From contig NZ_JAAHGO010000041.1 of NCBI RefSeq assembly GCF_010672455.1, positions 1 to 64,000 of the forward strand: a stretch of DNA of 64,000 nucleotides, written 5' to 3'. Below the pieces are notes generated by a model, which did not search any database, was not told the origin of the DNA, and worked only from the letters and a program-made list of their open reading frames with translations. The DNA is from Okeania sp. SIO2C9. Its GTDB lineage: Bacteria > Cyanobacteriota > Cyanobacteriia > Cyanobacteriales > Microcoleaceae. This document shows, piece after piece, positions 15,607 through 64,000 of the stretch (position 1 is its first letter; the number at the start of each line of letters is the position of its first letter). The translations under genes and the position numbers were made by a program.

Positions 15607-15616
15607 ATCATTAGTA

Positions 15617-16480: not shown

Positions 16481-16488
16481 AGCAGTTT

Positions 16489-19210: not shown

Positions 19211-19332
19211 CTGTCAGGCTTTTAATATCAAATCCGGTAGCATCGGTGTTATTCAGTATTAAAGAACTGTAGGGGCGAATGGCCATTCGCCCTTACACAT
19301 GGAGCAAGTCCTGCTTGATGGTATTTATCTGC

Positions 19333-19539: not shown

Positions 19540-19587
19540 GCACATTACAATAGCTGCCGATTCTGATACCATATGTTTAAATTAGTC

Positions 19588-19705
19588 AGGACTTACGCAA
19601 ATTGACTTTTAAACCACCATTTGTAGGGGCGCGATTCGGAGCTTTGCGAAACGCAAATGGTATTCGCCCTCGCTATATGTAAAGTCTCTAGGTAAGTCCT
19701 GTTAG
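19588..19705. repeat. MITE with CAGGACTTACGCA ends
   Basis: Starts CAGGACTTACGCAAAT and ends TAAGTCCTG, the terminal repeats of the transposase remnants at 15.2 and 29.4 kb. The interior carries a GTAGGGGCG...ATTCGCCCTCGC palindrome. It is a likely non-autonomous derivative of that IS. Confidence 0.7.
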
Positions 19706-19733
19706 TTTCTTTCATTTAATGATTGCAATTAAA

Positions 19734-21056: not shown

Positions 21057-21072
21057 TTTTAATGTCAGAGAT

Positions 21073-22059: not shown

Positions 22060-22077
22060 ATAATTATATCGATCGCT

Positions 22078-22890: not shown

Positions 22891-22894
22891 AATT

Positions 22895-23800: not shown

Positions 23801-24414
23801 TATTTTTTACTTTCAGGAATAGCAAATACCCAGTAATGTGCGTTTGATTCCTCTCCTAAATAAGGTTTATTCATTCTGCAATCTATTAATTTTAATTCTC
23901 CAAGTTGCTCTAATTCTTTATAATAACCTTCAAAATTATAAGTCTCACAAAAAACCAATCTTGTACTCATTAAAATTATGCCTCCTGGTTTTGTTACTTC
24001 CATCAGCCATCTTAATGCAGTCGGCTTTACTAAGTCAAATGAAAATACACCACAACAAATAGTTAAATCATATTGATGATGGAAAAAAAAGGGTGGTTTT
24101 TTATTCAAATCACACCAACCCATCAAGTATTGATATGCGCCTGTTTCATAGGCTAACTTTACCATCTCATGAGAAAAATCTACCCCATCAATATAAGAAA
24201 ATCCCTCTTTGCGTAATTTAACTCCAAGCAAACCTGTACCACATCCGGCATCTAAAACCTTAAGCTCAGATTTGTTACTGTAATCTATTACTTGCTGATT
24301 TACAACTTCCATGAGATATTCTACGATGTAGCTTGGAGCATAATAATTTCTATTTTTAACATCTACATTGTATGTGGAAGCCCATTTATCATATCGTTCT
24401 TGGTGATTGATCAT
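23800..24414 (-). CDS. Class I SAM-dependent methyltransferase
   Basis: A 204-aa Rossmann-type methyltransferase. Motif I is VLDAGCGTGLLG (53-64), followed by an acidic GVDFSHEM (about 77-84) for ribose binding and DLTICCGVFSFD as motif II. The size is that of small-molecule O-, N- or C-methyltransferases. It is the second gene of the minus-strand run, 42 bp after the enolase-superfamily gene and overlapping the next by one base. The substrate is unknown, but its place between catabolic-type enzymes suggests methylation of a pathway intermediate. Confidence 0.85.
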   Translation of the reverse strand: MINHQERYDKWASTYNVDVKNRNYYAPSYIVEYLMEVVNQQVIDYSNKSELKVLDAGCGTGLLGVKLRKEGFSYIDGVDFSHEMVKLAYETGAYQYLMGWCDLNKKPPFFFHHQYDLTICCGVFSFDLVKPTALRWLMEVTKPGGIILMSTRLVFCETYNFEGYYKELEQLGELKLIDCRMNKPYLGEESNAHYWVFAIPESKK

Positions 24415-24456
24415 CTATATTATATGTTGTTTAGAAAATACTTTTAGAAAAAATTA

Positions 24457-25572
24457 CTATGATTTAGTATAAACGGCAATGGGTTCACCTAATATTTCCA
24501 TAATCGGTTCTATGCCTAAACCTGGTGTTTCTGGTGGAATACCTGTACCCTTTTTGTAAGTATAGCCACCTTTGGCAGGAATGACGGTATGTAATCTAGT
24601 AGAGTCTGAAGTCGCTAAACGATATCTGAGGGGAGTAGCAACGGCCAAATGTATCGCACCTGTGCCTCCTATGACGCTACCGCCTGTTTCTTCTATATTC
24701 ATACGAAGTCCAGTGGCCAGACAAAAATCTCGCATTTGACGGGCTTTAGTTAACCCTCCAACTCTTCCAATTTTAATATTGATAGCTTGTGCCACACCTT
24801 CTCGTTGAGCCAATAATAAATCTTGAAAAGTGTGAATGCACTCATCTAAAATAATGGGGTGTTGAGTTAGGCGACGCACGGCTAAACATTCTTCCAATGT
24901 TTCACAGGGTTGCTCAAAATATACTGTTTTATCATTGATAGAATTCATAATTTGAATAGCATGATCTGGCAACCAAGCACGATTAGCATCTATGGTAATC
25001 TTTTCCTGTGGCTGTAATTCTGCCATGATTGCTTGAATACGGGAAATATCAAGGGAAACCTCCCCACCAATTTTAGGAGAAAAAATATGATATCCTTGAT
25101 CTCTTCGTTGTTTGAGATCGGCAACCATTTCTTCTGGTGTACCATTGGCAAAAGCCCCTATTAAATCAGCGTGTTCGCTAAAACGTCCTCCCAGCAGTGT
25201 ATGGAGGGGCAAATTAGCATATTTACCTAATATATCCCAACAAGCTACATCAATAGCAGACTTGACATATAAATGTCCTTTGAGAGTTAAGTCCATAAGA
25301 TGATTTATGTTCTCTAACTCAAGGGGATTAGCTCCTATTAGTATAGGAGCTAATTGAGCCATTCCTGCCTTTATTCCTCCAGCAAAAGCAGGTAAGTAAG
25401 ATGGTCCAAAAGGACAGGATTCACCCCAACCTACGATACCATCACTGGTTGTAATAGCGACAATAATGCTGTCCATTTTGTCCACAAATAAACGTCCACC
25501 TGAAATTCGATATGGCTTAATTAATGGTAATTCTACTTCGTAAATATTGATCTCACAAATTTTTATTGTCAT
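24457..25572 (-). CDS. Enolase-superfamily enzyme (MLE subgroup, cis-3-hydroxyproline dehydratase-like)
   Basis: A 371-aa mandelate racemase/muconate lactonising-type protein. Visible catalytic and metal residues are K167 (FSPKIGGEV), D195 (TIDANRAW), E220 (YFEQPCE), D243 (LDECIH) and K267 (NIKIGRVGG), the Lys-D-E-D-Lys set of the MLE subgroup. The first Lys of the usual KxK motif is Ser. The GWGESCPFGPSYLPAF stretch and the loop after it resemble cis-3-hydroxy-L-proline dehydratases more than cycloisomerases, which is a similarity judgement from memory. The gene heads the minus-strand run; a tandem inverted-repeat array lies upstream. Confidence 0.85.
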   Translation of the reverse strand: MTIKICEINIYEVELPLIKPYRISGGRLFVDKMDSIIVAITTSDGIVGWGESCPFGPSYLPAFAGGIKAGMAQLAPILIGANPLELENINHLMDLTLKGHLYVKSAIDVACWDILGKYANLPLHTLLGGRFSEHADLIGAFANGTPEEMVADLKQRRDQGYHIFSPKIGGEVSLDISRIQAIMAELQPQEKITIDANRAWLPDHAIQIMNSINDKTVYFEQPCETLEECLAVRRLTQHPIILDECIHTFQDLLLAQREGVAQAINIKIGRVGGLTKARQMRDFCLATGLRMNIEETGGSVIGGTGAIHLAVATPLRYRLATSDSTRLHTVIPAKGGYTYKKGTGIPPETPGLGIEPIMEILGEPIAVYTKS

Positions 25573-34026: not shown

Positions 34027-34235
34027 TGTTTATAAGAAGTAAGAAGGAAGAAGTAAGAAGGAAGAAGGTAAATTTTTAGTAAGTAGGTAGGTTTCATTAA
34101 TGGATAATTGATAATGGATAATTACCTCTCCCTCAAAATACAAATCCAGATAAATTCAAATACAGGAATTACAAATTATTACTTTTGACTTTTGACTGTC
34201 TTGAGTGTGTCTTACATTCTGAGGAGACCTCAGAA
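34027..34235. other. Intergenic repeats between the oxidoreductase gene and gshB
   Basis: Tandem GAAGAAGTAAGAAG-type runs (34036-34065), TAATTGATAATGGATAATTACC, and then the AGTGTGTCTTACATTCTGAG palindrome (about 34200-34252), which continues into the 3' end of gshB. Confidence 0.6.
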
Positions 34236-34265
34236 TTACACACTCGCTTTTGACTTTTGACTTTT
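34188..34265. repeat. Palindromic repeat forming the 3' end of gshB
   Basis: Core palindrome TCTGAGGAGACCTCAGA flanked by AAGTCAAAAG-type sequence. The reverse complement occurs, apparently identical over about 70 bp, at 62288-62357 inside the PKSE gene; a diverged copy is near 15964-16017. Here it supplies the last ~11 codons and stop of gshB. Confidence 0.8.
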
Positions 34266-50546: not shown

Positions 50547-51611
50547 ATGACCCAGATTTTAGCTAAACCTAACCTAGATAAGCACACAAAACAAAGTCTT
50601 TACTCCGCAACCTCCCCAAAGTCCCCGCCTTTACAACTCTGGGTGAAGTTACGCCAGCGCTTACTAGGAATTTCCACCGCAGAAGCAACTGTTGCCCGAC
50701 GGGGGTTTAAAACGAATAGTCCTCGTATTCAACAGCGATTAGAAACCATCGGCAAAACTTTTTTGCAGGGCTACCATGCAGCCATTAGCGATGCCAGACT
50801 AGAATCCCTAATTCCTCACCTCAACACCGTAGAAGCCGAGTGGCGAGGCTTTGCTTATGAAGGCGCAGGGATGGGACTTGCCTTACTTGATGGGCTGACC
50901 CCTTGGAAACGAAACCGCTTGCAGCAGTTCTTGGCAGATGCTGGAGGTGAGCATATTTATATGGTGTATGTAGGAATAGGATGGGCTTTAGCTCGCCTTC
51001 CTTGGGGCATCAATAGATATCTCAAAGACATGGGGGAGAAAAATCAATTCCCCGATCCCTTACTTGGTTGGCTGGCGCTAGATGGCTACGGTTTTCACCA
51101 AGGATATTTTTACTGGCGTCAATATGTCGAGGGAATAGCAATTCCCAAAAAACTATCTGGTTATGCCTATAGTGCCTTTGATCAAGGTTTGGGTAGGAGT
51201 CTCTGGTTCGTTTATGGGGCAGATATTAACCTCATTACCCAAGCTATCCAAAATTTCTCTATCAACAGGCAGGCAGATTTGTGGAGTGGAGTTGGGTTGG
51301 CCTGCACCTACGCAGGTGGTGTAAGCAAGGAAGTAGTACAATACCTATCCACGGCAGCAGGAACTTATTTACCCCAAGTATGTCAGGGAGCAGCCTTTGC
51401 TGCCAAGGCGCGTCTGAGAGCTGAAAACCTTGCGACTCATACAGAGATGGCTTGTCAAATTTTGTGTGGTATTAGTGCTGAGGCAGCAGCTGAGATTACC
51501 GACAAGGCTTTAGAAAATTTGCCCTATAACCAAAGAAAACCAGCTTATGAAATCTGGCGACAACGAATTCAAGCTCACTTTGCAATAGAAGAATTAATTG
51601 TTAATTATTAA
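50547..51611 (+). CDS. Enediyne cassette protein UnbL/E3 (DUF1702)
   Basis: A 354-aa protein of the DUF1702 family, the UnbL/E3 member of the conserved enediyne warhead cassette. Signatures are LLGISTAEATVARRGF (about 42-57), YEGAGMGLALLDGLTPW (about 109-125), GGEHIYMVYVGIGWALARLP (about 134-153) and LLGWLALDGYGFHQGYF (about 172-188). The biochemical role is not established; genetic work on the cassette links it to warhead formation together with PKSE. A Shine-Dalgarno-like AGGAG sits 9 bp before the ATG. E4 follows after a 304-bp repeat insertion, so the operon was probably tighter once. Confidence 0.9.
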   Translation: MTQILAKPNLDKHTKQSLYSATSPKSPPLQLWVKLRQRLLGISTAEATVARRGFKTNSPRIQQRLETIGKTFLQGYHAAISDARLESLIPHLNTVEAEWRGFAYEGAGMGLALLDGLTPWKRNRLQQFLADAGGEHIYMVYVGIGWALARLPWGINRYLKDMGEKNQFPDPLLGWLALDGYGFHQGYFYWRQYVEGIAIPKKLSGYAYSAFDQGLGRSLWFVYGADINLITQAIQNFSINRQADLWSGVGLACTYAGGVSKEVVQYLSTAAGTYLPQVCQGAAFAAKARLRAENLATHTEMACQILCGISAEAAAEITDKALENLPYNQRKPAYEIWRQRIQAHFAIEELIVNY

Positions 51612-51915
51612 TAATAAATTCTTACCTCTCCTGGAAAACGGATTATAATTGACTAAGTAATAAAATTTTTTTCTTCTCTTGGTCGATTGGATATGGCGAG
51701 GAGACCCGAAGAGTGACAGAGCCGCTTTCCTAGCGGAATGCTATCGCCAACCCTAACGCTATCCCACCCTACGGGAAGCTCCGAAGAGAGAACTCCGTTC
51801 CGCGGTCGCGTTTCGCGTCAGCGTTGCGTTACGCCAGTTTTGCGAAGCAAAAGCAAACGACCGCTTGTTTCTCCTTGAAAGGAGAGGCTTTAAACCTTAA
51901 TTATTCGGTAACAGC
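51612..51915 (+). repeat. Dispersed repeat between UnbL and UnbV genes
   Basis: A ~300-bp copy of the TTACCTCT...TTATTCGGTAA family in the sense orientation, with a GC-rich insert containing CGTTTCGCGTCAGCGTTGCG. It ends at TTCGGTAA (51903-51910), 5 bp before the next start codon, so it displaces any native ribosome binding site of that gene. Confidence 0.75.
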
Positions 51916-53925
51916 ATGATAGGATTAGTTCATTTTATGCGAGATCAGAGCAAGAGACTGATCGCGATTGTCCTGATTATGGGTTTATTCTGGTTTACCC
52001 GCCTTCCAGCTTTATCAGTTAGTGAAAGGGCAGCGATCGCCTCCAGATTTAATTTCACTCCCTTCCCTTTGCCAGAATTAGCTGGAGGAACTCCCAAATA
52101 TTTACGTTCAGTTCATCCTAGTTTAGAACGTCATTCAGCTTGGATTTCTGCAGTAGGAGCTTCTATTGCCCTGAATGACCTTGATGGCGATCGCTTGTCT
52201 AACGATGCTTGTTATGTAGACACACGGACAGATAGAGCGATCGTTTCCCCAGTACCAGGGACGGGAGAGCGTTATCAACCCTTTGAATTAAAGCCGACAA
52301 ATCTTCCCTACGATGCTTCAACTATGGCACCAATGGGCTGTCTTCCTGGAGATTTGAATGAAGATGGGTTGATGGATCTTCTCGTTTATTACTGGGGAAG
52401 AACTCCGGTGGCATTTTTGCGTCAAAGAAGTGAGACGGTGGGTGACAATACAATAGATTCTGGTAACTCAGTCTACACACTTAACTATCTTCCTCAAGAA
52501 ATAATCCCAAATCTCAAATCTCAAACTCCAAATCAACCCGAACGTTGGTATACTAATGCTGCTACCTTTTCTGACTTGGATGGCGACGGACACAACGATC
52601 TGATTATTGGGAACTACTTCCAGGATGGGGCAGAAATTATCAACCCCAATGGCACTGGTACTGAAGAAATGCAGCATTCTATGACTCGTGCTTATAACGG
52701 CGGGAAGAATCGTATTCTCCTGTGGGCAGGGGCAACGAAATCAACCGTCCATTTCCAAGAAGCTGAAGGAGTTTTAGACAATAATGTTGCCCATGGTTGG
52801 ACACTGGCAGTGGGAACAGCAGATTTAGATGGAGATCTTCTGCCGGAAATCTACTTATCTAATGATTTTGGTCCCGATCGACTGTTACACAATCTTTCTC
52901 AACCAGGAAAACCAAAGTTTGCACTTTTGGAAGGTCAGAAGGGTTTAACTACCCCTAATTCTAAAGTGTTAGGACATGATGGCTTTAAAGGTATGGGAAT
53001 TGATTTCGGCGATATTAATCAAGATGGTTTACTCGATCTCTATGTGAGTAATATTGCTAATGAATATGCTTTGGAAGAAAGTCATTTTCTCTTTGTCAGT
53101 ACAGGAGAATTGGATAAGATGAATCGAGGTATTGCTCCATATATTGACCGCAGCGAACCTTTAGGTTTATCTCGTAGTGGCTGGGGTTGGGATACCAAAT
53201 TTGGCGATTTTGATAATGATGGAGTCCTAGAAGCATTACAGGCGACAGGATTTAGGAAAGGGAAGATCGATCGTTGGCCAGAGTTACAGGAATTAGCGAT
53301 CGCTAATGATGAAGTGCTGAAATCTCCTGGTAGTTGGTTTCACTTTCAATCTGGAGATGATTTAAGTGGACATCAGCATAATCCTTTCTATGTCAGTGAT
53401 TCTAATGGTCGCTATTACGATATTGCTAAGGAATTAGGTTTAGATAATCCTTTTGTAACTCGTGGTATTGCTACAGCGGACGTAGATGGAGATGGAGATT
53501 TAGATTTTGCAGTAGCTAATCAGTGGGAAGATTCCTATTTCTATCGTAATGACAGTCCTGAACCAGGAGCATTTTTGGGGCTGAAACTATGGCAAACCTC
53601 AACTATTTCTCAATCAATCGAAAATCAATCATCTAAAATCAGCAAGAATTTAGTTTTTCCCGCCATCGGGGCAACCGCTACGGTTCATCTCCCCGACGGG
53701 CGTCAGTTAGTTGCCCAAGTAGACGGTGGGAATGGGCATTCGGGGGCGAGGAGTCCTGAACTGCACTTCGGTTTAGGTCAAATACAGGATGAAACCCCCT
53801 TACCAGTGGACTTGCAGTGGCGCGATACAGAAGGGCAAGTCCACCGAGAAAGTTTGTTGTTGTTACCTGGTGAGCATCAAGTTCTGCTAGGTGAGGCGGC
53901 AAAACCTCTTTCTGGCTTGAGCTAG
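51916..53925 (+). CDS. Enediyne cassette protein UnbV/E4 (FG-GAP/VCBS, ASPIC-UnbV)
   Basis: A 669-aa protein of the UnbV/E4 (CRTAC1-like) family. One hydrophobic segment near the N-terminus (about 15-32) suggests export or anchoring. About seven calcium-binding FG-GAP/VCBS motifs follow, e.g. DLDGDGHNDLIIGN, DLDGDLLPEIYLSND, DINQDGLLDLYVSN and DVDGDGDLDFAVANQ. The ASPIC/UnbV domain is at the C-terminus (about 570-665: IGATATVHLPDGRQ). Its role in warhead biosynthesis is not established biochemically. Its last ~80 codons were duplicated twice downstream. No obvious ribosome site precedes the ATG because a repeat ends 5 bp upstream; TTG or GTG starts further in cannot be excluded. Confidence 0.9.
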   Translation: MIGLVHFMRDQSKRLIAIVLIMGLFWFTRLPALSVSERAAIASRFNFTPFPLPELAGGTPKYLRSVHPSLERHSAWISAVGASIALNDLDGDRLSNDACYVDTRTDRAIVSPVPGTGERYQPFELKPTNLPYDASTMAPMGCLPGDLNEDGLMDLLVYYWGRTPVAFLRQRSETVGDNTIDSGNSVYTLNYLPQEIIPNLKSQTPNQPERWYTNAATFSDLDGDGHNDLIIGNYFQDGAEIINPNGTGTEEMQHSMTRAYNGGKNRILLWAGATKSTVHFQEAEGVLDNNVAHGWTLAVGTADLDGDLLPEIYLSNDFGPDRLLHNLSQPGKPKFALLEGQKGLTTPNSKVLGHDGFKGMGIDFGDINQDGLLDLYVSNIANEYALEESHFLFVSTGELDKMNRGIAPYIDRSEPLGLSRSGWGWDTKFGDFDNDGVLEALQATGFRKGKIDRWPELQELAIANDEVLKSPGSWFHFQSGDDLSGHQHNPFYVSDSNGRYYDIAKELGLDNPFVTRGIATADVDGDGDLDFAVANQWEDSYFYRNDSPEPGAFLGLKLWQTSTISQSIENQSSKISKNLVFPAIGATATVHLPDGRQLVAQVDGGNGHSGARSPELHFGLGQIQDETPLPVDLQWRDTEGQVHRESLLLLPGEHQVLLGEAAKPLSGLS

Positions 53926-53934
53926 GAAGAAAAA

Positions 53935-53953
53935 AAGCTCCTCACAGGAGCTT
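53935..53953. promoter_or_regulatory. Hairpin AAGCTCCT/AGGAGCTT before PEP-CTERM gene 1
   Basis: AAGCTCCT-CAC-AGGAGCTT with an A-tract before it and no T-tract after it on the plus strand. On the minus strand it would look like an intrinsic terminator. It recurs at 55151-55169 and 56245-56263, each time 31-36 bp before a GTG start. Confidence 0.6.
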
Positions 53954-53984
53954 GATCAAATCAAATTTACAGGAGTATTATCAG

Positions 53985-54791
53985 GTGAATATTTTTAAAT
54001 CATCAAGATTCGTAACTCGTAGTCTAATTGGAGCTTTGGGATTAAGTGCGATCGCTCTTTTTGGTGTCGTAGCTCCTGCAGCAGCAGAAGCAGATTGTGG
54101 CCCCGGGGAGGGTTGGGTTGATAATTGTGAGGCTGGAACCGATCATTTTTCAAACAGTTGGATCAATATTCACTTGTGGTGGGATATTCCCGCACTGGAG
54201 GGAATAGTTGGCGATCTGCCCGATGATTTCTCAATGGAAGACTGGATTATGGTCAAAGGTCCTGTATGGGTAGAGCGAGAAGCAGGGGAAAATAATATGA
54301 TCGAAACTACTCTATCTCATACACTCTCTGGAAATCATGACTTTTTCGGGCCACTTACTCTGGAGACAACAGGAACGGGTGTAATTACAGAAATAGAGCC
54401 TGGTCTGGCCGATAGCTCCTTTGAAGTTGATTTCACACTTAATGGTATGTTCGGAGGCAAGACCACGATAATAGCAGATCGTCTATTGAGAGGTGTATCT
54501 CCAGATGCTTCCAGTGTACTTCCAGGAGTTATTCCTAACCCTTCTAACCCCACAGGATGCCCTAGTACTGATTCAGTCAATGCTGCAGTTATCTATTGTA
54601 ATACCGATCCAAGCGATCTATTTTATTTTGGCGCTGATGGAATTTTCGGAACTGAAGATGACGTTGTGGTAGCTACTATACATAGTGAAGAACACATAAT
54701 TCATATTCCTGAACCTTCCATGGTACTAGCATCTATTTTCGGACTCGGTGGAATGTTGGGATTGAAGAGAAAGAAAGAATCTGACAGCTAA
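53985..54791 (+). CDS. PEP-CTERM exoprotein 1 of the enediyne locus
   Basis: A 268-aa secreted protein. The GTG at 53985 is chosen because AGGAG (53971-53975) precedes it by 9 bp and the two paralogues start at the equivalent codon; an upstream in-frame TTG at 53952 is within the hairpin. The signal peptide covers about 1-36 (cleavage near APAAAEA). The mature domain has DCGPGEGWVDNCEAGTD and SNSWINIHLWWDIP with a Cys pair. The C-terminal sorting tag is IPEPSMVLASIFGLGGMLGL followed by KRKKESDS: PEP motif, membrane helix and basic tail, the substrate form for exosortase. Function of the mature domain unknown. It shares most of its sequence with the next gene. Confidence 0.85.
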   Translation: MNIFKSSRFVTRSLIGALGLSAIALFGVVAPAAAEADCGPGEGWVDNCEAGTDHFSNSWINIHLWWDIPALEGIVGDLPDDFSMEDWIMVKGPVWVEREAGENNMIETTLSHTLSGNHDFFGPLTLETTGTGVITEIEPGLADSSFEVDFTLNGMFGGKTTIIADRLLRGVSPDASSVLPGVIPNPSNPTGCPSTDSVNAAVIYCNTDPSDLFYFGADGIFGTEDDVVVATIHSEEHIIHIPEPSMVLASIFGLGGMLGLKRKKESDS

Positions 54792-55199
54792 GTCAATAGC
54801 TAAAGTTCTGTAGGTTTGGTTAAGCAACAAACGCAACCCAAGATCCTAATCCTTAGCAATGTTGGGTTTCCTTGGGTCAATCCAACCTACTTCTACTACG
54901 GTTCGCTTCCCCGACGAGCGTTATTGAGTAGCGCAGGTAAGCCATAAGAATGAGCATTTGGGGGCAGGGAGTCCTGAATTGCACTTCGGTTTAGGTCAAA
55001 TACCGGAGGAAACCCCCCTTACCAGTGGACTTGCCGTGGCGCGATACAGAAGGGCAAGTCTATCTGTGAAAGTTTGTTGTTACCTGGTTTGTATCAAGTG
55101 CTGCTAGGTGATGCAGCAAGACCTCTTTCTGGCTTGAGCTAGGAAGAAAAAAGCTCCTCACAGGAGCTTCATCAAATCAAATTTACAGGAGTATTATAG
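54792..55199 (+). pseudogene. Decayed duplicate of the UnbV/E4 3' end (relic 1)
   Basis: From about 54893 to 55143 the DNA follows the last ~250 bp of the E4 gene (53680-53930). It shares ACTTCGGTTTAGGTCAAATA, CTTACCAGTGGACTTGC, GGCGCGATACAGAAGGGCAA and the terminal CTTTCTGGCTTGAGCTAGGA, with frameshifts and stops. The first 100 bp (54792-54892) carry a GTTGGGTTTCC...TCAATCCAACC palindromic repeat. The hairpin at 55151-55169 follows. Confidence 0.9.
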
Positions 55200-56015
55200 G
55201 TGAATATTTTTAAATCATCAAGATTCGTAACTCGTAGTCTAATTGGAGCTTTGGGATTAAGTGCGATCGCTCTTTTTGGTGTCATAGATCCTGCAGCAGC
55301 AGAACCAGATTGTGGCCCCGGGGTTGGTTGGGTTAATAATTGTGAGGCTGGAACCGATCGTTTTTCAAACAGTTGGATCAATATTCACTTGTGGTGGGAT
55401 ATTCCAGCACTGGAGGGAATAGTTGGCGATCTGCCCGATGATTTCCCAATGGAAGACTGGATTATGTTCAAAGGTCCTGTATTGGTAGAGCGAGAAGCAG
55501 GAAACAATAATATGATCGAAACTACTCTATCCCATACACTCTCTGGAAATCATGACTTTTTAGGGCCACTTACTCTGGAGACAACAGGAACGGGTAAAAT
55601 TACAGAGATAGAGCCTGGTCTTGCCGATAGCTTCTTTGATGTTGAATTCAAACTTAATGATATGTTCGGAGGCAGCACCACGATCAAAGCAGATCGTCTA
55701 TTGACAGGTGTATCTCCAGACGATCCCAGTTTACCTCCAGGAGTTTTTCCTAACCCTCCTAACAACATATGTGATAGTACTAATTCAGTCGATGCTGTAA
55801 TTATCTATTGTAATATGGAGAATGATCCGAGCGATCTATTTTATCTTGGCGCTGATGGATTGTTAGGAACTGCAGATGACGTTCTGGTAGGTACTATACA
55901 TCGTGAAGAACACATAATTCATGATCCCATTCCTGAACCTTCCATGGTACTAGCATCCATTTTCGGACTGGGTGCCATGTTGGGATTGAAGAGAAAGAAA
56001 GAATCTGACAGCTAA
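55200..56015 (+). CDS. PEP-CTERM exoprotein 2 of the enediyne locus
   Basis: A 271-aa paralogue of exoprotein 1, nearly identical through the signal peptide and the first half. It differs mainly around residues 160-215, where the linker is changed (PSLPPGVFPNPPNN). It starts with GTG after AGGAG (55187-55191). The C-terminal tag is IPEPSMVLASIFGLGAMLGL plus KRKKESDS. The high identity at DNA level, including the flanking hairpin and ribosome site, indicates recent duplication. Function unknown; the gene is intact. Confidence 0.87.
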   Translation: MNIFKSSRFVTRSLIGALGLSAIALFGVIDPAAAEPDCGPGVGWVNNCEAGTDRFSNSWINIHLWWDIPALEGIVGDLPDDFPMEDWIMFKGPVLVEREAGNNNMIETTLSHTLSGNHDFLGPLTLETTGTGKITEIEPGLADSFFDVEFKLNDMFGGSTTIKADRLLTGVSPDDPSLPPGVFPNPPNNICDSTNSVDAVIIYCNMENDPSDLFYLGADGLLGTADDVLVGTIHREEHIIHDPIPEPSMVLASIFGLGAMLGLKRKKESDS

Positions 56016-56294
56016 GTAGATAGGAAAAGTTCTGTAGGTTTGGTTAAGTAATAAATGCAACCCAACATCCTAATCCTTAGCAATGTTGGGTTTCCTGCGG
56101 TCAACCCAACCTACTTCTACTACGGTTGGCCTCCCCGATGGGCGTTATCAAGTCTATCAAGAAAGTTTATTGTTACCTGGTTGGTATTAAGTGCTACTAG
56201 GTGAGGCGACAAAACCTCTTTCTGGCCTGAGCTAGGAAGAAAAAAAGCTCCTCACAGGAGCTTCATCAAATCAAGTTTACAGGAGTATTATAAA
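56016..56294 (+). pseudogene. Decayed duplicate of the UnbV/E4 3' end (relic 2)
   Basis: Positions about 56112-56240 retain only scraps of the E4 tail: CCTCCCCGATGGGCGTTATC, AAGAAAGTTTATTGTTACC, GTGAGGCGACAAAACCTCTT and the GAGCTAGGAAG end. It is more deleted than relic 1. The same GTTGGGTTTCC palindromic repeat comes first (about 56070-56115). Confidence 0.85.
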
Positions 56295-57590
56295 GTGAAT
56301 ATTTTTAAATCATCAAAGTTTGTTATTGGAATTATCACAGTTTTAGTGACAACAGGAGCACATGCGGCAACGTTTCCGCTGACATCTGAACCATTAGATG
56401 GATTAGTACTAGAAACGACTGTATTTGATGTTGTTGATGGAAACATAGTTGCTGAAGTTACCCTTGATGGGAACCGTGTTGGTCAGTTAGATGGACTGGA
56501 ATGGGAGATTCTGGAAGGTACAGCATCTATCAATGAGGATAAATTCAATAACCTTGCACTGTTCAAACCTGTTGGAACTACGACTGTTATTGCTCGACCA
56601 CGTTTGGGTAGTATTATTGGAGAACCTACAATCGTGGGAATAGATCCAAATATCATACCATCTGACGAGAGCATTTTCTTAGCTGCTGGAGGAGGGTTAT
56701 GTATAGCCAACCCGAATCATTTCGCTGCTTTTGCATTAAACGTGGATGTGCGCTCGTTAACCATAGCAAATGCAATACCCATATCCCTCACTGAGAGATC
56801 GCTAGTCTATCGTGACGGAGAGTACTATGCACATGATCCGGTAGCTGGGACTATGAGAATAACTTACAATCCGAATTTTGAATCTCATACTACCATAACA
56901 TCTACATCTGCTGATCCTCTAAATGATTTCTTCGCTTCTGCTACTGCTGAAAGTGAATTTTTCTTTAATATCGAGTTCCTTGATTTCGGAGTCACCGTCT
57001 TTAATAAGGACCCAATGGTTTTTCTTGACAACAGTACAGAATGGCCTGTATTCGGAACAAATCTTGATCACCAGGCTCCAGTCGAATTTTATTTTTCAGA
57101 TAATCCTGAAACTCTTTTCATGACTATCGAAAACCAGAATATGTATCTTTATCCTACAAGTGAATTAAGAGTAACAAATACTGAATGGATGATTGACGAA
57201 ACTGGAATGCTTACTTCGTCTTGGCTTATAGAAAATTTAATTGATGTCGAAGGAGTATTGCAATGGTTCTTGATCGGTGACGATGGCACTCCTTTATCAC
57301 CAAGCTCTGGTAGTTTAACTATTGAAGCTGAAGGCAATGGTACTGTCGAGTTCAATTCACAACTGTCGCCATCTATGCTGACTCAAACCCTGAGTTTAGG
57401 TGTCGTCAGCCTAAAGGGACCGAGGATGTCGGGATCGAGCACTGTTGATTTCCGTTTCACTTATAGCGTTCCCGAACCCACCTCTATCCTGAGCTTCCTT
57501 GCCCTCGGCACTCTAGGAACAGCTTTAACCCTTAAACGCAAACTTAAGTCTTTTAAATCCACAGAAAGAAAGAATTTAACAGCTAAGTAA
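56295..57590 (+). CDS. PEP-CTERM exoprotein 3 of the enediyne locus
   Basis: A 431-aa secreted protein with the same ribosome site, GTG start and first eight codons (VNIFKSSK) as exoproteins 1 and 2, but otherwise different in sequence. The signal peptide is about 1-24 (ending AHAA). The mature domain is beta-rich with no recognised family and contains ITYNPNFESHTTITSTSADP. The C-terminal tag VPEPTSILSFLALGTLGTAL plus TLKRKLKS is a PEP-CTERM signal, followed by an unusually long basic tail. It probably received its leader through the tandem duplication event or is a much older paralogue. Confidence 0.82.
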   Translation: MNIFKSSKFVIGIITVLVTTGAHAATFPLTSEPLDGLVLETTVFDVVDGNIVAEVTLDGNRVGQLDGLEWEILEGTASINEDKFNNLALFKPVGTTTVIARPRLGSIIGEPTIVGIDPNIIPSDESIFLAAGGGLCIANPNHFAAFALNVDVRSLTIANAIPISLTERSLVYRDGEYYAHDPVAGTMRITYNPNFESHTTITSTSADPLNDFFASATAESEFFFNIEFLDFGVTVFNKDPMVFLDNSTEWPVFGTNLDHQAPVEFYFSDNPETLFMTIENQNMYLYPTSELRVTNTEWMIDETGMLTSSWLIENLIDVEGVLQWFLIGDDGTPLSPSSGSLTIEAEGNGTVEFNSQLSPSMLTQTLSLGVVSLKGPRMSGSSTVDFRFTYSVPEPTSILSFLALGTLGTALTLKRKLKSFKSTERKNLTAK

Positions 57591-57649
57591 ATAGCAAATT
57601 GATTATCTTAGTGCATTACGGCAAAACTTTTCATTGGGTTTCAACTATT

Positions 57650-58582
57650 ATGACCAAATCTATCCTTTACCAAAGCAAACGATTAGCTGGACTACGCCGC
57701 TTTGCCATAGCAATTACCTTCCTCAATATTCTAGGACATACCGTATTAGGATTTGAACAATCTTGGGCGCAACCAATAGTTGCTCTAGTAACCGCTTACA
57801 GTGTCGAACTCCTACTAGAAACTATTGATGCTAGGATAAATCGACAGCAACCCCGTTTTCTCGGCAGTTTCAGCAATTTTATCGACTTTCTGCTTTCTGC
57901 TCATATTACTGCTTTAGCTGTGGCAATGCTGCTGTATGCTAATGAGCGATTATTCCCTATCGCCTTTGCAACCGCTGTCGCTATTGGCTCAAAAGCAATT
58001 TTTCGCCTTCCTGAAGGAAAACGACATTTCTTCAACCCTTCTAACTTTGGTATTACCATTACCTTGCTGTTGTTTCCTTGGGTAGGTATTGCTCCCCCCT
58101 ATCAATTTACAGAAAATTTAAGCGGTTGGGCAGATTGGATTTTACCTGCACTGATTGTTTGTACCGGGACTTTTCTCAATGCTCGCTTTACCAGAAAACT
58201 GCCATTGATTGCAGGATGGCTGGGAGCTTTTGTCCTTCAAGCAGCATTGAGGAGTTATGTTTTTGAAACGCCTTTGATACCTGCCTTACTGCCAATGACA
58301 GGAGTTGCTTTTGTCCTCTTCACCTTTTATATGGTGACCGATCCAGGTACAACCCCGAGAAAACCTTTAGACCAAGTGTTTTTTGGAGCATCAGTCGCTG
58401 CTGTTTATGGCTTGTTAATGGTCTGTCATATTGTATTTGGACTGTTCTTTGCTCTGACAATTGTTTGTACTTTGAGAGGGTTGAATTTTTATACTCAGAC
58501 TTGGATTAATCAGATGTCCAGAACTAAGATTCTTGTACCAGCACCAATCGCAGTGAGTTATCAAAAATCTAGCCAAAGTTAA
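57650..58582 (+). CDS. Enediyne cassette protein UnbU/E5 (membrane protein)
   Basis: A 310-aa polytopic membrane protein (about eight hydrophobic segments) matching UnbU/E5 of the enediyne cassette and distantly the RnfD/NqrB-type electron-transport subunits. Typical stretches are KRHFFNPSNFGITITLLLFP (about 121-140) and FYMVTDPGTTPRKPLDQVFF (about 225-244). The ATG at 57650 is preferred; an in-frame TTG at 57599 would add 17 residues that look non-native. RnfD relatives bind covalent flavin at a (S/T)GAT-type Thr; that motif is not obvious here. A redox or transport role in warhead biosynthesis is inferred for the family only. Confidence 0.88.
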   Translation: MTKSILYQSKRLAGLRRFAIAITFLNILGHTVLGFEQSWAQPIVALVTAYSVELLLETIDARINRQQPRFLGSFSNFIDFLLSAHITALAVAMLLYANERLFPIAFATAVAIGSKAIFRLPEGKRHFFNPSNFGITITLLLFPWVGIAPPYQFTENLSGWADWILPALIVCTGTFLNARFTRKLPLIAGWLGAFVLQAALRSYVFETPLIPALLPMTGVAFVLFTFYMVTDPGTTPRKPLDQVFFGASVAAVYGLLMVCHIVFGLFFALTIVCTLRGLNFYTQTWINQMSRTKILVPAPIAVSYQKSSQS

Positions 58583-59002
58583 CCACTATGACTGATAACT
58601 TATAATAAATTTTTTGTTTGTAGTTGGGCTTTAGCCCAAACAATACTTATATGAGGGCTAAAGCCCAACTACGAGCATGATTATAACTTTTCCGAACATA
58701 ATATTACATTGGCTTTTGTCGCATTTGGTAAAAAACTAGCTCTATTGCACAAATCAGAAGGATAAATAATTATTCGTTCATCGTCAAAATTATTCCCTCT
58801 CCTAACAATCTGTGGAAAACAAAAAAAATGAATAGTGAGTAACAAATAGAGATCTCCAATAATAAAAAATCAAATCAATTATCGTAGATAAATCATCAAT
58901 TATTTACCCCCTACTCTTTACGGACGTTGCATACAACGTCCCTACTCCCTCTTTTCCGGAGAGGTCTAATAACAAATAAATACAAAAAAGAGAGATTTAA
59001 TT
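58583..59002. other. Intergenic region between UnbU and PKSE
   Basis: Contains an inverted repeat (58620-58672: GTAGTTGGGCTTTAGCCC ... GGGCTAAAGCCCAACTAC), a strong hairpin and a candidate transcription stop. An inverted copy of the TAGACATCTCC family lies at about 58851-58970, carrying GACGTTGCATACAACGTC inside. The PKSE promoter, if separate, would lie after 58970. Confidence 0.6.
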
Positions 59003-62000
59003 ATGAAACCTGCTATTGCTATTGTCGGAATGGCTTGTCGGTATCCAGATGCGCGATCGCCTGTCGAACTCTGGGAGAATGTTTTGGCACAACGTCGTGC
59101 TTTTCGACGCATTCCAACTGAAAGATTATCTTTAGATGATTATTTCTCTACCGATAAAAGTACTCCTGATTGCACCTATGGAGCAGAAGCTGCTCTGATT
59201 GAAGGTTACGAATTCGACCGCGTTGATTTTCGTGTAGTCGGTAGTACTTTTCGTTCGGCTGATTTAGTTCACTGGTTGGCATTAGATATTGCTGCCCAAG
59301 CTTTAGCTGATGCTGGATTTGCTGAAGGAGAAAATTTACCCCGCGAAACTACAGGAGTTTTACTGGGAAATACCCTCACTGGAGAATTTTCGAGAGCTAA
59401 TTCTTTACGTTTGCGTTGGCCTTATGTGCGCCGAGTTGTGGAAACGCAACTCATACAGCAGGGAATCTCCTTAGAAGAACGTCTTGCCTTCCTCAAAGAT
59501 TTAGAAAGCAAATATAAAGAACCTTTCCCAGAGATTGGTGAAGAATCTTTAGCCGGGAATTTGTCTAATACTATAGCAGGCCGAATCTGTAATCATTTTG
59601 ACCTCAAAGGGGGAGGTTATAGCATTGATGGAGCTTGTAGTTCTTCCTTACTAGCTGTTGCTAATGCCTGTTCTGCTTTAATGACAGAAGATTTAGATGT
59701 GGCGATCGCTGGTGGAGTAGATTTAAGTTTAGACCCCTTCGAGTTAGTGGGATTCGCTAAAGTAGGAGCATTAGCTACCCAAGAAATGCGGGTCTATGAT
59801 GCTCGTTCTGCTGGTTTTATTCCTGGGGAAGGCTGTGGGTTTGTCGTATTAATGCGCTACGGAGATGCAATAGTACAGCAGCGACGTATTTACGGTGTCA
59901 TTCGTGGTTGGGGTATCTCTTCTGATGGCAATGGTGGCATTACCCGGCCCGAAGTTGAAGGTCAGTTATTGGCAATTAAACGTGCCTATCGTCGAGCAGG
60001 GTTTGGCATTGATACATTAGGATATTTTGAGGGACACGGTACTGGTACTAGCGTTGGTGATGCTACAGAACTGCAAGTATTGTCTCGTGCCCGTTTGGCA
60101 GCAGAGGCAGCATTGTCTCCTGCTGCAATTAGTTCTATTAAGGCAAATATTGGTCATACAAAAGCTGCGGCCGGAATAGCAGGAATAATCAAAGCTACCA
60201 TGGCACTCCACACTCAAATACTTCCGCCGACTACTGGTTGTGACCAACCCCATCCCTCACTGCAGGTTGAAAACTCGCCCCTGAAAGTCCTGAAAGAGGG
60301 TCAAGCTTGGTCAGAAGATGTACCTCTGCGGGCTGGGGTAAGTGCAATGGGTTTTGGTGGTATTAATACTCATATTGTCCTAGAAGGAAACTCTAGCATT
60401 CGTCGTCACAAGCTAACACCTAAAGAACGCCAACTTATAACGACACCTCAAGATGCCGAACTCATTTTACTAGCAGCCAAAAATACGGAAGAGTTAGAGC
60501 AAAAAGTTAAGCATCTTTTAGAAATAGCTCCCAGATTATCAAGAGCTGAAGTAGGAGATTTAGCTGCGGAATTAGCAAGCAACTTAGATATTAGTTTACC
60601 TGTACGCGCTGCTATTGTTGCTAGTCATCCCCAAGAGTTCACCACTCACTTAGAAACTCTCCTCAATAAAATTCAAAATTCACAATTCAAAATTCACAAT
60701 TCATCGGGTGTCTTTTTAGGGATAGATGGAAAAAATCCACGAATTGGTTTTCTTTTCCCTGGACAAGCTTCTCCTGTGTATCTTAATGCTGGGGTGTGGT
60801 CTCGTCGTTTTCCGTTCTTACAAGAATTATATGCCAAGGCTAATTTACCAACAGTAGAAGATACGAAGTCAACAGCGATCGCTCAACCAGCAATTGTCAC
60901 CTCATCTACGGTAGGTTTACGAGTATTAAACCAACTGGGTATCGTCGCTGATGTTGCTGTCGGTCACAGTTTAGGAGAATTAAGTGCTTTACACTGGGCT
61001 GGAATTTTCGATGAAACTGCCTTAGTTCGCATTGCCAAGATGCGCGGTAAAATTATGGCGGAACTGAGCAACCCTACAGGGAAAATGGCGAGTATTGGTG
61101 CAGGGGAACAAGAAGTTAAAGCACTGCTGAATGGTCGAGTAGTTGCTATAGCTGGATTGAATTCACCTTATCAAACAATTGTCTCAGGGGAACCAATAGG
61201 AATCAGTAACATAGTAGCAAAAGCACAAGCTAAAGGATTGAAAAACTTTACTTTACCAGTGTCTCATGCTTTCCACTCGCCTCTAGTTGCTGCAGTAGCA
61301 CCACCTTTAGCTGATTATCTCGCACAGGAAGATTTTCATCCGTTACAAGGTAAGGTGGTCTCAACCATTACAGGTACTTATTTAGAAGAAACAGCCGATT
61401 TACGATCGCTTTTGGTGCAACAAGTAACTTTACCTGTGCAGTTTATGGAAGCTGTTACTACAGCAGCTAAAGACTTAGATTTATTTATTGAAGTCGGTCC
61501 GGGACAAATTTTAAGTAGGTTAGTCAGCGATCTGGTAGATGTTCCTACAATATCCTTAGATGCGAGTGGTAATTCTCTTAAAGGTTTATTAAAAGCGGCA
61601 GCGGCAGCTTTTACTTTGGGAGTTCCCATTAACCATCAAGCTTTATTTGCGGGACGTTTTACCCGACCATTTAATTTAGATTGGCAGCCTCAATTTTTCG
61701 TTAATCCCTGTGAGTTAGCCCCTGTTTCTCAGTCAACAGGTAACAGGCAACAGGCAACAGGCAACAGGCAACAGGCAACAGGCAACAGGCAACAGGGAAA
61801 TACTAACACCTCTAGTTATGACCGTTTCGAGTATAACAAAAGTAGGCAACAGGCAACAGGCAACAGGCAACAGGGAAATATTAACACCTCTAGTTATGAC
61901 CGTTTGGAGTATAACAGTCGAGCAGAAATAGATAATCCTCAGCAATTAAATGTTATTAATAGCTCTTCTAAAATTGACTGTGTTCGCCAACTTGTTGCTC

Positions 62001-64000
62001 AACGAACAGAACTTCCTGTTGCCAGTATTTTAGATAACCATCGACTATTGAGCGATTTGCATCTCAATTCCATAACCGTCAGTCAATTAGTAGTTGAAGC
62101 TGCCCGCAGTTTAAATTTATCTCCTCCCATAGCACCAACAGATTATGCAGATGCCACAGTTGCTGACATTGCCCAAGCATTAGAAGAACTTTCTAGTATT
62201 GGTGAAACTCACTCTGTTGAGCAACTGCCTTCAGGAGTAGATTCCTGGATACGGACATTTACTGTTGAGTTGGTAGAGTCGCCTTTAGAAGTCAAAAGTC
62301 AAAAGCGAGTGTGTAATTCTGAGGTCTCCTCAGAATGTAAGACACACTCAAGACAGTCAAAAGTAAAAATTAAAGACATTGATTCTAATTGGCAAGTTAT
62401 TGCTCCTGCTAACTACCCTTTAAATCTTCTATTATCAGAAGCATTTAGTCAACTTGAAGGTAATGGTGTTATCATTTGTCTTCCTCCAACATTAAATATT
62501 CAGGACTTACGCACCGGCACTAAATCAAGTGAGGGCGAATGCCATTCGCCCCTACAGATGGCGTTTTCAAGGTTAATTTGCGTAAGTCCTGATATTGAAG
62601 AACAAATTGAGCTTTTATTAACAGGAGCTAAAAATTTATTAGCTAAAGCAGAAGAGGAAAAATCAAAGCAACATAGTTTTATCTTAATACAACATGGTAG
62701 TGGTGGAGCGTCCTTTGCTCGGACATTCTATCTAGAAAACCCCAAGATTACAACTTGTGTAATTGATGTTCCCATAGATCATCCTCAAGCAGTTGAGTGG
62801 ATTATTACTGAAGCCTCTTCAACCTCTGGGTATTCTGAATCCTATTATGATGTTGAAGGAAAAAGGCGATCGCCTGTTCTCCGTTTGTTACCTATTCCTT
62901 CAGAGGAAAACGACGAATTAACCCTAACTTCAGAAGATATCTTATTAGTTACAGGGGGTGGTAAGGGAATTGCTGCCGAATGTGCTTTATCTATCGCTCA
63001 AGAAACAGGAGTTCGTCTAGCATTGTTAGGACGTTCTCAACTCGAAACTGATGCCGAACTAGCAACTAATCTCAACCGGATGACTAATGCTGGTATTCAG
63101 GTGAAATACTTATCAGTGGATGTTACCGATAGTCAAGCAGTGAAAAGTGCAGTAAACCAAATCGAAACAGATTGGGGTCACATCACCGCTATTATCCACG
63201 GTGCGGGAGTCAATAAACCGAAACTAATTAAAAATCTCGATCGCCAAGACTGCTTAGATACTTTAGCACCTAAAGTTCATGGTCTGCAAAACCTATTCGC
63301 AGCAATTAATTCCGAGTATCTGAGACTATCAGTTACTTTTGGTTCAATTATTGCCCGGACGGGTTTACCAGGAGAAGCAGATTACGCTCTCGCTAACGAA
63401 TGGCTCGCTCATCTGACAGAACAATTCCAAACCCAAAACCCCCTCTGTCGCTGTCTGAATTTAGATTGGTCAGTTTGGTCTGGTGCAGGTATGGGAGAAC
63501 GTTTAGGTCGAATCGATACTTTGATGCAACAAGGGATTACAGCAATTCCCCCAGATCGAGGAATTACTATTCTGCGTCGTCTGATAGCTCAATCGTTACC
63601 AACCACTTCTGTTGTTGTAACAGGTCGCTTTGGAGAACCTCCCACCCTCAAAGTTGAACAGCCGGAACTTCCTTTCAGTCGGTTCCTGGAACAAACTAGA
63701 GTCTATTATCCTGGAGTAGAGTTAGTAGTAGATGCAGAACTCTCAACAAGCAGTGACCTTTACCTAGACGATCACGTTTACCAAGGAGAACGAATTTTTC
63801 CTGGGGTGATAGGGCTGGAAGCTATGGCGCAGGTAGCAACGGCATTACATCCTTTAATGAGTGTGGATAAAGCCTGTGTTCAACCTTCTGAGTCAGATAT
63901 CTATCCCCCCCAACCCCCCTTAGTAAGGGAAGATAAAAAATCATTCAGATTTGAAAACATTCAGTTTAATCGACCAGTTGTTGTTCCTGAAGGTGAAACA
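59003..64000 (+). CDS. pksE: Enediyne-type iterative polyketide synthase PKSE (partial, C-terminus beyond window)
   Basis: Open from ATG at 59003 to the window end, 1666 codons. The KS domain (about 1-460) has C212 (DGACSSS), H345 (EGHGTGT) and H385 (NIGHTKAAAG). The AT domain (about 570-860) has S656 (GHSLGEL) and H758. An ACP around 1023 has SDLHLNSITVSQLV, the PKSE-type ACP signature with S1023 for phosphopantetheine. The KR domain has VTGGGKGIAAE at about 1316 and Y1461. The DH domain has LDDHVYQGERIFPGVIGLEA with H1591. This is the order of enediyne PKSEs, whose last domain, a PPTase, would follow. The family makes a linear polyene from malonyl units that becomes the warhead. Five dispersed repeats are read in frame. 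Confidence 0.93.
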   Translation, partial: MKPAIAIVGMACRYPDARSPVELWENVLAQRRAFRRIPTERLSLDDYFSTDKSTPDCTYGAEAALIEGYEFDRVDFRVVGSTFRSADLVHWLALDIAAQALADAGFAEGENLPRETTGVLLGNTLTGEFSRANSLRLRWPYVRRVVETQLIQQGISLEERLAFLKDLESKYKEPFPEIGEESLAGNLSNTIAGRICNHFDLKGGGYSIDGACSSSLLAVANACSALMTEDLDVAIAGGVDLSLDPFELVGFAKVGALATQEMRVYDARSAGFIPGEGCGFVVLMRYGDAIVQQRRIYGVIRGWGISSDGNGGITRPEVEGQLLAIKRAYRRAGFGIDTLGYFEGHGTGTSVGDATELQVLSRARLAAEAALSPAAISSIKANIGHTKAAAGIAGIIKATMALHTQILPPTTGCDQPHPSLQVENSPLKVLKEGQAWSEDVPLRAGVSAMGFGGINTHIVLEGNSSIRRHKLTPKERQLITTPQDAELILLAAKNTEELEQKVKHLLEIAPRLSRAEVGDLAAELASNLDISLPVRAAIVASHPQEFTTHLETLLNKIQNSQFKIHNSSGVFLGIDGKNPRIGFLFPGQASPVYLNAGVWSRRFPFLQELYAKANLPTVEDTKSTAIAQPAIVTSSTVGLRVLNQLGIVADVAVGHSLGELSALHWAGIFDETALVRIAKMRGKIMAELSNPTGKMASIGAGEQEVKALLNGRVVAIAGLNSPYQTIVSGEPIGISNIVAKAQAKGLKNFTLPVSHAFHSPLVAAVAPPLADYLAQEDFHPLQGKVVSTITGTYLEETADLRSLLVQQVTLPVQFMEAVTTAAKDLDLFIEVGPGQILSRLVSDLVDVPTISLDASGNSLKGLLKAAAAAFTLGVPINHQALFAGRFTRPFNLDWQPQFFVNPCELAPVSQSTGNRQQATGNRQQATGNRQQGNTNTSSYDRFEYNKSRQQATGNRQQGNINTSSYDRLEYNSRAEIDNPQQLNVINSSSKIDCVRQLVAQRTELPVASILDNHRLLSDLHLNSITVSQLVVEAARSLNLSPPIAPTDYADATVADIAQALEELSSIGETHSVEQLPSGVDSWIRTFTVELVESPLEVKSQKRVCNSEVSSECKTHSRQSKVKIKDIDSNWQVIAPANYPLNLLLSEAFSQLEGNGVIICLPPTLNIQDLRTGTKSSEGECHSPLQMAFSRLICVSPDIEEQIELLLTGAKNLLAKAEEEKSKQHSFILIQHGSGGASFARTFYLENPKITTCVIDVPIDHPQAVEWIITEASSTSGYSESYYDVEGKRRSPVLRLLPIPSEENDELTLTSEDILLVTGGGKGIAAECALSIAQETGVRLALLGRSQLETDAELATNLNRMTNAGIQVKYLSVDVTDSQAVKSAVNQIETDWGHITAIIHGAGVNKPKLIKNLDRQDCLDTLAPKVHGLQNLFAAINSEYLRLSVTFGSIIARTGLPGEADYALANEWLAHLTEQFQTQNPLCRCLNLDWSVWSGAGMGERLGRIDTLMQQGITAIPPDRGITILRRLIAQSLPTTSVVVTGRFGEPPTLKVEQPELPFSRFLEQTRVYYPGVELVVDAELSTSSDLYLDDHVYQGERIFPGVIGLEAMAQVATALHPLMSVDKACVQPSESDIYPPQPPLVREDKKSFRFENIQFNRPVVVPEGET
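60660..60705 (+). repeat. AAAATTCACAATTC repeat in the PKSE KS-AT linker
   Basis: Tandem AAAATTCAAAATTCACAATTC sequence encodes NKIQNSQFKIHNSS at about residues 555-568, a region rich in Asn/Gln unlike the rest. This simple repeat type is common in intergenic cyanobacterial DNA. Confidence 0.6.
61734..61918 (+). repeat. AGGCAAC heptamer array and duplicated unit in the PKSE AT-ACP linker
   Basis: The heptamer AGGCAAC, seen outside genes at 15654-15714, is repeated about eight times at 61737-61796 and again at about 61851-61875, and is read as TGNRQQATGNRQQ. Around it a unit ending GGGAAATAYTAACACC...GAGTATAACA occurs twice (encoding TNTSSYDRFEYN and INTSSYDRLEYN). The frame stays open throughout. 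Confidence 0.9.
62288..62360 (+). repeat. CTCAGAAT palindromic repeat inside PKSE
   Basis: About 70 bp, apparently identical to the reverse complement of 34190-34260 at the gshB end. It encodes a Ser/Lys/Cys-rich stretch (KSQKRVCNSEVSSECKTHS) at about residues 1097-1117, between the ACP and the KR region. Confidence 0.9.
62501..62592 (+). repeat. AGGACTTACGCA MITE inside PKSE
   Basis: A complete element with ends CAGGACTTACGCA and TGCGTAAGTCCTGA and a GAGGGCGAATGCCATTCGCCC core. It is read in frame as about 31 residues (QDLRTGTKSSEGECH...FSRLICVSP). The same ends flank the transposase remnant at 15.2 kb and the MITE at 19588-19705. Confidence 0.9.

Follow-up and report, generated by a model that had tools for sequence, protein, structure and literature searches.

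A complete five-gene enediyne PKS cassette in the marine cyanobacterium Okeania

The window analysed here comprises bases 1–64,000 of contig C254 (85,154 bases) in the 10.88-Mb, 317-contig genome of Okeania, a marine filamentous cyanobacterium; the host is the cyanobacterium that an earlier note on this DNA had supposed. A cassette composed of E3, E4, E5, the enediyne polyketide synthase (PKS) PKSE and E10 is complete, lies entirely on the plus strand and spans 17.8 kb, with PKSE running across the window edge and E10 following beyond it (Table 1). The earlier note had placed UnbL/E3, UnbV/E4, UnbU/E5 and PKSE in one direction, and the shared strand is confirmed, while Pfam and comparison with the Sgc proteins bear out the family assignments. 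Because PEP-CTERM genes and several gaps of ∼280–420 bp break up the cassette, it is not a tight operon. The E5 reading frame as listed opens at TTG, and since the copy in Okeania SIO1I7 starts at the counterpart of aa 18, the start is probably near 57650.

Table 1. The cassette and its surroundings, in contig positions
Feature	Position	Strand	Remarks
E3 / UnbL, DUF1702 protein, 354 aa	50547..51611	+	PF08012 414.7 bits, E 2.7e-124
E4 / UnbV, 669 aa	51916..53925	+	Pfam FG-GAP and UnbV_ASPIC; 43.9% to SgcE4
PEP-CTERM protein 1	53952..54791	+	start probably GTG at 53985; TIGR02595 18.5 bits (cut-off 16)
PEP-CTERM protein 2	55200..56015	+	TIGR02595 17.1 bits (cut-off 16); 84% identical to protein 1 in alignment
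PEP-CTERM protein 3, 431 aa	56295..57590	+	TIGR02595 19.2 bits (cut-off 16)
E5 / UnbU, RnfD/NQR2-like membrane protein	57599..58582	+	53% to SgcE5; PF03116 26.6 bits, just below cut-off 27.7
PKSE, 2089 aa, KS-AT-ACP-KR-DH-PPTase	59003..65272	+	window edge at 64000
AT-ACP linker of PKSE: in-frame heptamer repeats (CAGGCAA)n with a duplicated 73-nt stretch (spacing 78)	61728..61930	+	
ACP-KR interval of PKSE: in-frame 91-bp element whose 13-bp inverted ends are perfect	62501..62591	+	
Matrixin-like PEP-CTERM protein	65312-67021	+	past window
131-aa protein	67326-67721	-	past window; family not recognised
E10 thioesterase, 139 aa	67910-68329	+	past window
TauE/SafE permease	68750-69760	+	past window; PF01925 94.1 bits
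RND pump	70625-73720	+	past window; membership doubtful

Alignment of PKSE with SgcE of the C-1027 cluster gives 53.6% identity over the first 908 aligned columns (aa 4–909) and 37.8% over 942–1927; with domain borders that we set ourselves, the values are 63% for KS, 47% for AT, 46% for ACP, 55% for KR, 38% for DH and 36% for PPTase. The KS-AT-ACP-KR-DH order claimed in the earlier note is reproduced on this alignment, as are its ACP motif LHLNSITVSQL at aa 1019 and its DH motif DHxxxGxxxxPGxxGLEAMAQ at aa 1590, and the C-terminal PPTase that it proposed to seek past 64 kb is present as an aligned region. Retained motifs include GACSSS, EGHGTGT and NIGH in KS, GHSLGE in AT, the ACP Ser, GGGKGI in KR, HxxxGxxxxP in DH, and CD.E and ECLKK in the PPTase region, among which lie what we take to be the catalytic residues. 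The ACP scores 20.2 in Pfam against a cut-off of 20.8 and is absent from the whole-protein listing, and no PPTase domain of PKSE was named by the Pfam scan; because neither passes a Pfam cut-off, both calls rest on the SgcE alignment.

The class of PKSE was addressed with a KS tree of 25 rows (24 of 31 KS places plus that of the window), in which SgcE is the only characterised PKSE reference, three PUFA-type KSs come from other cyanobacteria and six modular KSs come from the same genome as the window. KS phylogeny had been named beforehand as a test, and the 16 PKSE rows, including those of Okeania and SgcE, split from the PUFA-type and modular KSs at 100/100. Okeania and Calothrix MO_167.B12 group at 100/98; most of the branching among the cyanobacterial PKSE rows is unsettled, with seven inner branches open and a long-branch warning for Sinorhizobium and one modular KS. 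Two partial KSs (L024, L026) and five more modular KSs of the same genome (L003, L007, L051, L053, L056) were left out.

The E10-type thioesterase that was likewise to be sought past 64 kb was found there. Its best PDB matches are 4i4j (1.8e-44), whose sequence is that of SgcE10, and CalE7 (2.1e-42), and DynE7 (2.5e-38) follows after two PDB entries titled only ‘Thioesterase’; these matches exclude chance similarity. The reference for the remaining proteins was the nine-membered C-1027 (sgc) cluster on the Streptomyces globisporus C-1027 plasmid NZ_CP013739.1 (L044), the only characterised cluster compared, from which 32 of 39 annotated features were used at a threshold of E 1e-3. Six of the 32 match the 85-kb contig, namely the five cassette proteins and SgcE2, the latter via the single E3 gene only. 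Identities are 53.0% for E5, 52.8% for E10, 43.9% for E4 and, for E3, 43.5% (225 bits) to the C-1027 DUF1702 protein beside E4 and 35.5% (182 bits) to the other one, the two being presumed from their positions to be E3 and E2. E3 is the sole PF08012 match in the whole Okeania genome, where no second DUF1702 gene was found, and being closer to E3 than to E2 it leaves the nine-membered marker E2 absent as a separate gene. According to the portion of PMC5181780 concerned with types, nine-membered enediynes are marked by E2 and ten-membered ones by R3.

Several repeats lie in frame within PKSE. The 91-bp element carries the same five bases on both flanks, and 91 + 5 = 96 bases correspond to 32 codons. 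It is missing at the corresponding site in SIO1I7, and if that absence is ancestral, this mobile-looking element entered PKSE after the split from SIO1I7. The AT-ACP linker is enlarged by the heptamer repeats and the doubled 73-nt stretch, the SIO1I7 linker being shorter. A palindromic repeat of ∼80 bp additionally lies in the ACP-KR linker (window ∼62289–62369), with a 94% copy inside one of the genome's own modular PKS frames (34183–34263; also L048:2353–2434); it is reminiscent of palindromic elements known to insert into coding sequences without shifting the reading frame.

Pairwise dN/dS values of 0.07–0.24 against SIO1I7 (E3, E4, E5, PKSE, E10, TauE) and 0.11–0.19 against Calothrix (E4, E5, PKSE, E10, TauE) indicate that the cassette is under purifying selection; for PEP-CTERM protein 1, dN is 0.055 and dS 0.087. 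The distribution of the cassette is sparse. E10 occurs in two of 386 evenly drawn cyanobacterial genomes, the window's own and Richelia sinica, and E3 in four of 61 genomes of the family, all within Okeania (five genomes). A genome scan for E10 returned 20 loci, 17 of them cyanobacterial and one each from Chloroflexota, Acidobacteriota and a proteobacterial bin; the search patterns, built from four sequences of cyanobacteria, are biased towards these. PKSE stretches accompany 14 of the 17 cyanobacterial loci and are missing from three Crocosphaera loci. The cassette genes also occur in other cyanobacteria and in members of Acidobacteriota and Chloroflexota, and a number of these loci are packed runs. 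The PKSEs of Okeania and Calothrix sp. MO_167.B12 share 81.9% identity at a pS of 0.40, against 73.6% and a pS of 0.77 for HflX from the same two organisms, and the HflX proteins of Mojavia, Dulcicalothrix, Richelia and M. wesenbergii are equally close (72–76%). Of six rows in the HflX pS comparison, the four of two Okeania, Dulcicalothrix and Richelia had been translated from the wrong strand (32–47 stops) and were set aside, and that of Mojavia has one stop. These values point to a likely transfer of the cassette between the Okeania and Calothrix lineages, with the binning of the Calothrix assembly taken as given; because HflX was the only yardstick gene, they fall short of proof.

The families that recur beside cyanobacterial cassettes are hypA, TauE, PEP-CTERM proteins, the 131-aa protein, a regulator and exporters. 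SIO1I7 has relatives of PEP-CTERM proteins 1 and 2; Richelia carries one between E4 and E5, Crocosphaera MO_192.B18 one next to E4, and UBA11372 one, at 28% identity, before E5; a search bearing on whether the PEP-CTERM proteins might be enediyne apoproteins gave no PDB sequence match. The TauE/SafE permease adjoins E10 in Okeania, Calothrix, Cyanothece and three Crocosphaera loci. hypA is a histidine-rich membrane protein, annotated ‘hypothetical protein’ in the C-1027 cluster (L044:40517–41080), and stands by PKSE or E10 in Richelia, Microseira, Microcystis wesenbergii, Mojavia, UBA11370 and UBA11372; in Dulcicalothrix it is on the cassette contig, farther away. Searches with members of the family gave no Pfam match (three members), no NCBIfam match of note (two members) and no PDB relative.

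Whole-genome searches recovered hypA in none of nine genomes with TauE beside E10, nor in G418, G421 and G444, and a TauE protein at 1e-10 in none of seven genomes with hypA and in neither G451 nor G444. hypA and TauE never occur together in 16 genomes; hypA is present in seven cyanobacterial genomes, beside the cassette in six, and both are lacking from at least one genome with the cassette, Aphanocapsa (G444). In an E10 tree with 23 rows, which left out L043 and in which 10 of 20 inner branches are open, the hypA and TauE states need at least two changes, which suggests that one may replace the other, a suggestive reading drawn from few independent events. Among plasmid records, hypA occurs in 14, 13 of them among those with E10 and the remaining one a Geminocystis plasmid.

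Other neighbours vary from locus to locus. The RND pump is doubtful as a cassette gene, since the Okeania genome that lacks E3 has two tandem RND genes (76–78% identity) on a 22-kb stretch without other query genes. The 131-aa protein adjoins E10 on the opposite strand in Okeania and Microcystis (L031, L038); an assignment to SCP2, a lipid carrier, was not retained, with a single Pfam match at 0.018 below cut-off, no such match in either Microcystis copy, and no SCP2 found in a PDB profile search with the protein. A VCPO-domain protein (PF22778, vanadium-haloperoxidase type) follows the Aphanocapsa cassette (L040:10434–11879), with a relative beside the Ktedonobacter cassette (L041:1112–2692), and a halogenation step at these two cassettes is possible. 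An AraC-type regulator stands after E10 in L030, L036, L042 and, there after TauE, in L027, and all four loci also match the C-1027 cluster's AraC regulator; none was seen at that place in Okeania. A MacB/FtsX-type permease, probably an exporter, lies near E10 in L031, L033, L034 and L037, with an HlyD-like partner in L031 and L034; these calls are by Pfam for the L037 permease and the L031 HlyD and by similarity for the others. Farther off, contig ∼78261–79166, past the window, holds a reading frame that by eye resembles a caspase-type protease with an apparent PEP-CTERM-like tail, and window positions 11838–25572 hold, on the minus strand, a catabolic-looking run with FAD oxidoreductases, isochorismatase, PhyH, MmgE/PrpD, HMGL, HpcH, 2-hydroxyacid dehydrogenase, methyltransferase and mandelate-racemase types.

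By analogy with actinomycete homologues, the PPTase domain of PKSE would arm the enzyme's own ACP, on which KS, AT, KR and DH would act iteratively on one bound chain to give a fully conjugated polyene. The hotdog thioesterase E10 would then release this polyene as 1,3,5,7,9,11,13-pentadecaheptaene, the chain length being reached with loss of CO2. It would next be acted on by E3, E4 and E5, the last of them a membrane protein, the trio that turns the polyene into an alkyne-bearing intermediate. Because PKSE and E10 give the heptaene and E3, E4 and E5 follow, the reach of the recognised genes would end at a linear alkyne-bearing compound. Judged from its position by E10, the TauE/SafE permease, perhaps with the PEP-CTERM proteins, may serve export or extracellular handling. 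The chemistry assigned to the five genes recognised here is thus inferred from that of actinomycetes, where PKSE and the thioesterase yield the heptaene as a shared precursor, according to the relevant extract of PMC10971088; the heptaene also appears in an extract of PMC8725005. Taken together, we consider it highly probable that the five genes form a complete enediyne PKS cassette maintained by selection, for which the polyene route is the likely mode of action.

What the end product would be is less certain. The reading that survives best, which we hold tentatively as a serious possibility, is that the cassette alone makes a linear conjugated polyene or polyenyne, such as a pigment, membrane or signal compound, and no ring-closed enediyne. 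SgcE6, E7, E8, E9 and E11 are without a match on the 85-kb contig; the annotation of the C-1027 region itself names only SgcE6, the other E numbers being labels of our own, set with the help of gene position. DUF5987 (E8) was found in none of 13 genomes, in a search whose controls also gave nothing, and for E9 the window's genome yields nothing beyond short, weak GMC-oxidoreductase matches, the best at 1.3e-10 across 60 residues. An E10 match is present in 53 plasmid records, of which 49 reach at least 42% identity; 34 of these 49 also carry E8, and 13 of the 15 without it are from Streptomyces clavuligerus, the one examined being a bare five-gene set. Enediyne clusters often span 80–120 kb with 50–75 ORFs in the account excerpted from PMC5181780, a size that likewise favours a linear product here. 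Against it, only the nine-membered C-1027 cluster was compared, and P450s matching SgcE7 at 26–38% occur on nine other contigs of the window's genome. Additionally, because the ten clusters described in the cited section of PMC5181780 have E3, E4, E5, E and E10 in common with all enediynes and no conservation beyond them, the missing C-1027 genes leave room for a ten-membered or new type.

Possible, if somewhat less probable, is that the product is a true enediyne and that the enzymes for ring closure and tailoring are peculiar to the lineage or encoded at other places in the 10.9-Mb genome. All five enediyne-common genes are present and under selection, P450 genes are available on other contigs, and FAD oxidoreductases lie ∼30–40 kb upstream. 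However, the genome offers no second DUF1702 gene, and no redox enzyme was seen to recur beside cyanobacterial cassettes, where most loci reach no more than 10 kb from E10 and the Pfam scans covered only some of the neighbours. Neither the halogenase nor the epoxidase that the earlier note proposed to seek was found when 29 of the 43 window ORFs with at least 80 aa, and nine ORFs beyond the window, were scanned with Pfam. Its phrase ‘enediyne warhead cassette’ consequently stands as regards a complete enediyne PKS cassette and not as regards a warhead or DNA-cleaving product, E6–E9, E11, halogenase and epoxidase not having been found.

That the locus is decaying and makes nothing is unlikely. 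Signs of decay are found in relatives: Okeania SIO2B3 has E10, an E3 match with an internal stop and PKSE only as pieces, with E4 and E5 both missing from its 15.6-kb contig; no E3 was found in one Okeania genome; the cassette of the Microcystis aeruginosa locus L038 is in fragments; and Crocosphaera watsonii (L033) retains E10 next to a TauE broken into two frames, with no PF08012 match in its genome, so that its E10 locus is probably a remnant. The repeats inside the window's own PKSE could be read in the same way. The Okeania genome without E3 and the broken SIO2B3 copy do show the pathway to be dispensable. In the window's genome, however, all five frames are open, and the low dN/dS ratios against SIO1I7 and Calothrix argue against decay. 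It is scarcely conceivable that PKSE belongs to a PUFA or heterocyst-glycolipid type synthase, a reading prompted by its PUFA-related KS and a TIGR02813 score of 562.6 bits on the within-window part and ruled out by the distance of that score from the cut-off of 1010.1, by the full support with which the KS tree parts it from PUFA-type KSs, and by the company of E3, E4, E5 and E10.

The preferred reading, a complete enediyne PKS cassette under selection, has precedents in the phylum. Enediyne clusters of cyanobacteria were drawn in 2014 (PMC4247773, in the excerpt containing Fig. 6B), so that the earlier description of such gene sets as known mainly from actinomycetes understates the record, and a lake bin carries an enediyne-type PKS nearest to a Microcystis one (PMC5826242, in excerpt). 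Its statement that cyanobacterial enediyne products are not characterised agrees with the extract of PMC10308959 (2023), which lists Cyanobacteria among phyla with enediyne KSs and no reported compound. Since PMC4247773 and PMC10308959 already record such genes in the extracts cited, the Okeania cassette is a further example and not new for the phylum. As a lean cassette with few recognised neighbours, that of this marine cyanobacterium is suited to asking directly what the five common genes produce by themselves. In addition, the alternation of hypA and TauE names two genes outside the five as candidates for a missed step or transport, hypA being common to actinomycete and cyanobacterial clusters despite its annotation. 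A more speculative and rather doubtful extension is that outside actinomycetes the five-gene cassette is self-sufficient and makes a linear, membrane-soluble polyenyne, of which drug-type enediynes would be a later elaboration; export in cyanobacteria would then be by hypA (common to C-1027) or TauE/SafE interchangeably, and the Okeania PEP-CTERM proteins would meet the compound outside.

Compared with known systems, Okeania resembles C-1027 in its E3, E4, E5, PKSE and E10 homologues, in the E3-E4-E5-PKSE order and in the PKSE domain order. In C-1027, E10 stands apart from PKSE, and that cluster has in addition E2, E6, E7, E8, E9, E11, NRPS-type parts, regulators and hypA, which are unmatched on the Okeania contig except that E2 matches the E3 gene. 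Cyanobacterial PUFA-type and heterocyst glycolipid synthases share with PKSE a KS of related class; unlike PKSE, they have PfaA-type matches above cut-off, of which the window's genome has none, and their KSs form a separate clade. In contrast to Okeania, the acidobacterial locus L042 has a P450 shortly downstream of its cassette. Other cyanobacterial cassettes (Calothrix sp. MO_167.B12, Microseira, Richelia, Dulcicalothrix, Mojavia and Microcystis wesenbergii) hold the same genes within the stretches covered, with KSs 72–92% identical; several are packed runs, unlike that of Okeania, and PEP-CTERM genes accompany only some. A parallel in gene set outside these comes from the Streptomyces clavuligerus plasmid (L060), whose E3-E4-E5-PKSE-E10 genes are consecutive and whose KS is 62.6% identical. 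Its annotation within 15 kb is free of a second DUF1702, GMC oxidoreductase, DUF5987, P450 and TIGR03084 genes and, unlike Okeania, lists neither a PEP-CTERM gene nor TauE. Bare cassettes therefore also occur outside cyanobacteria.
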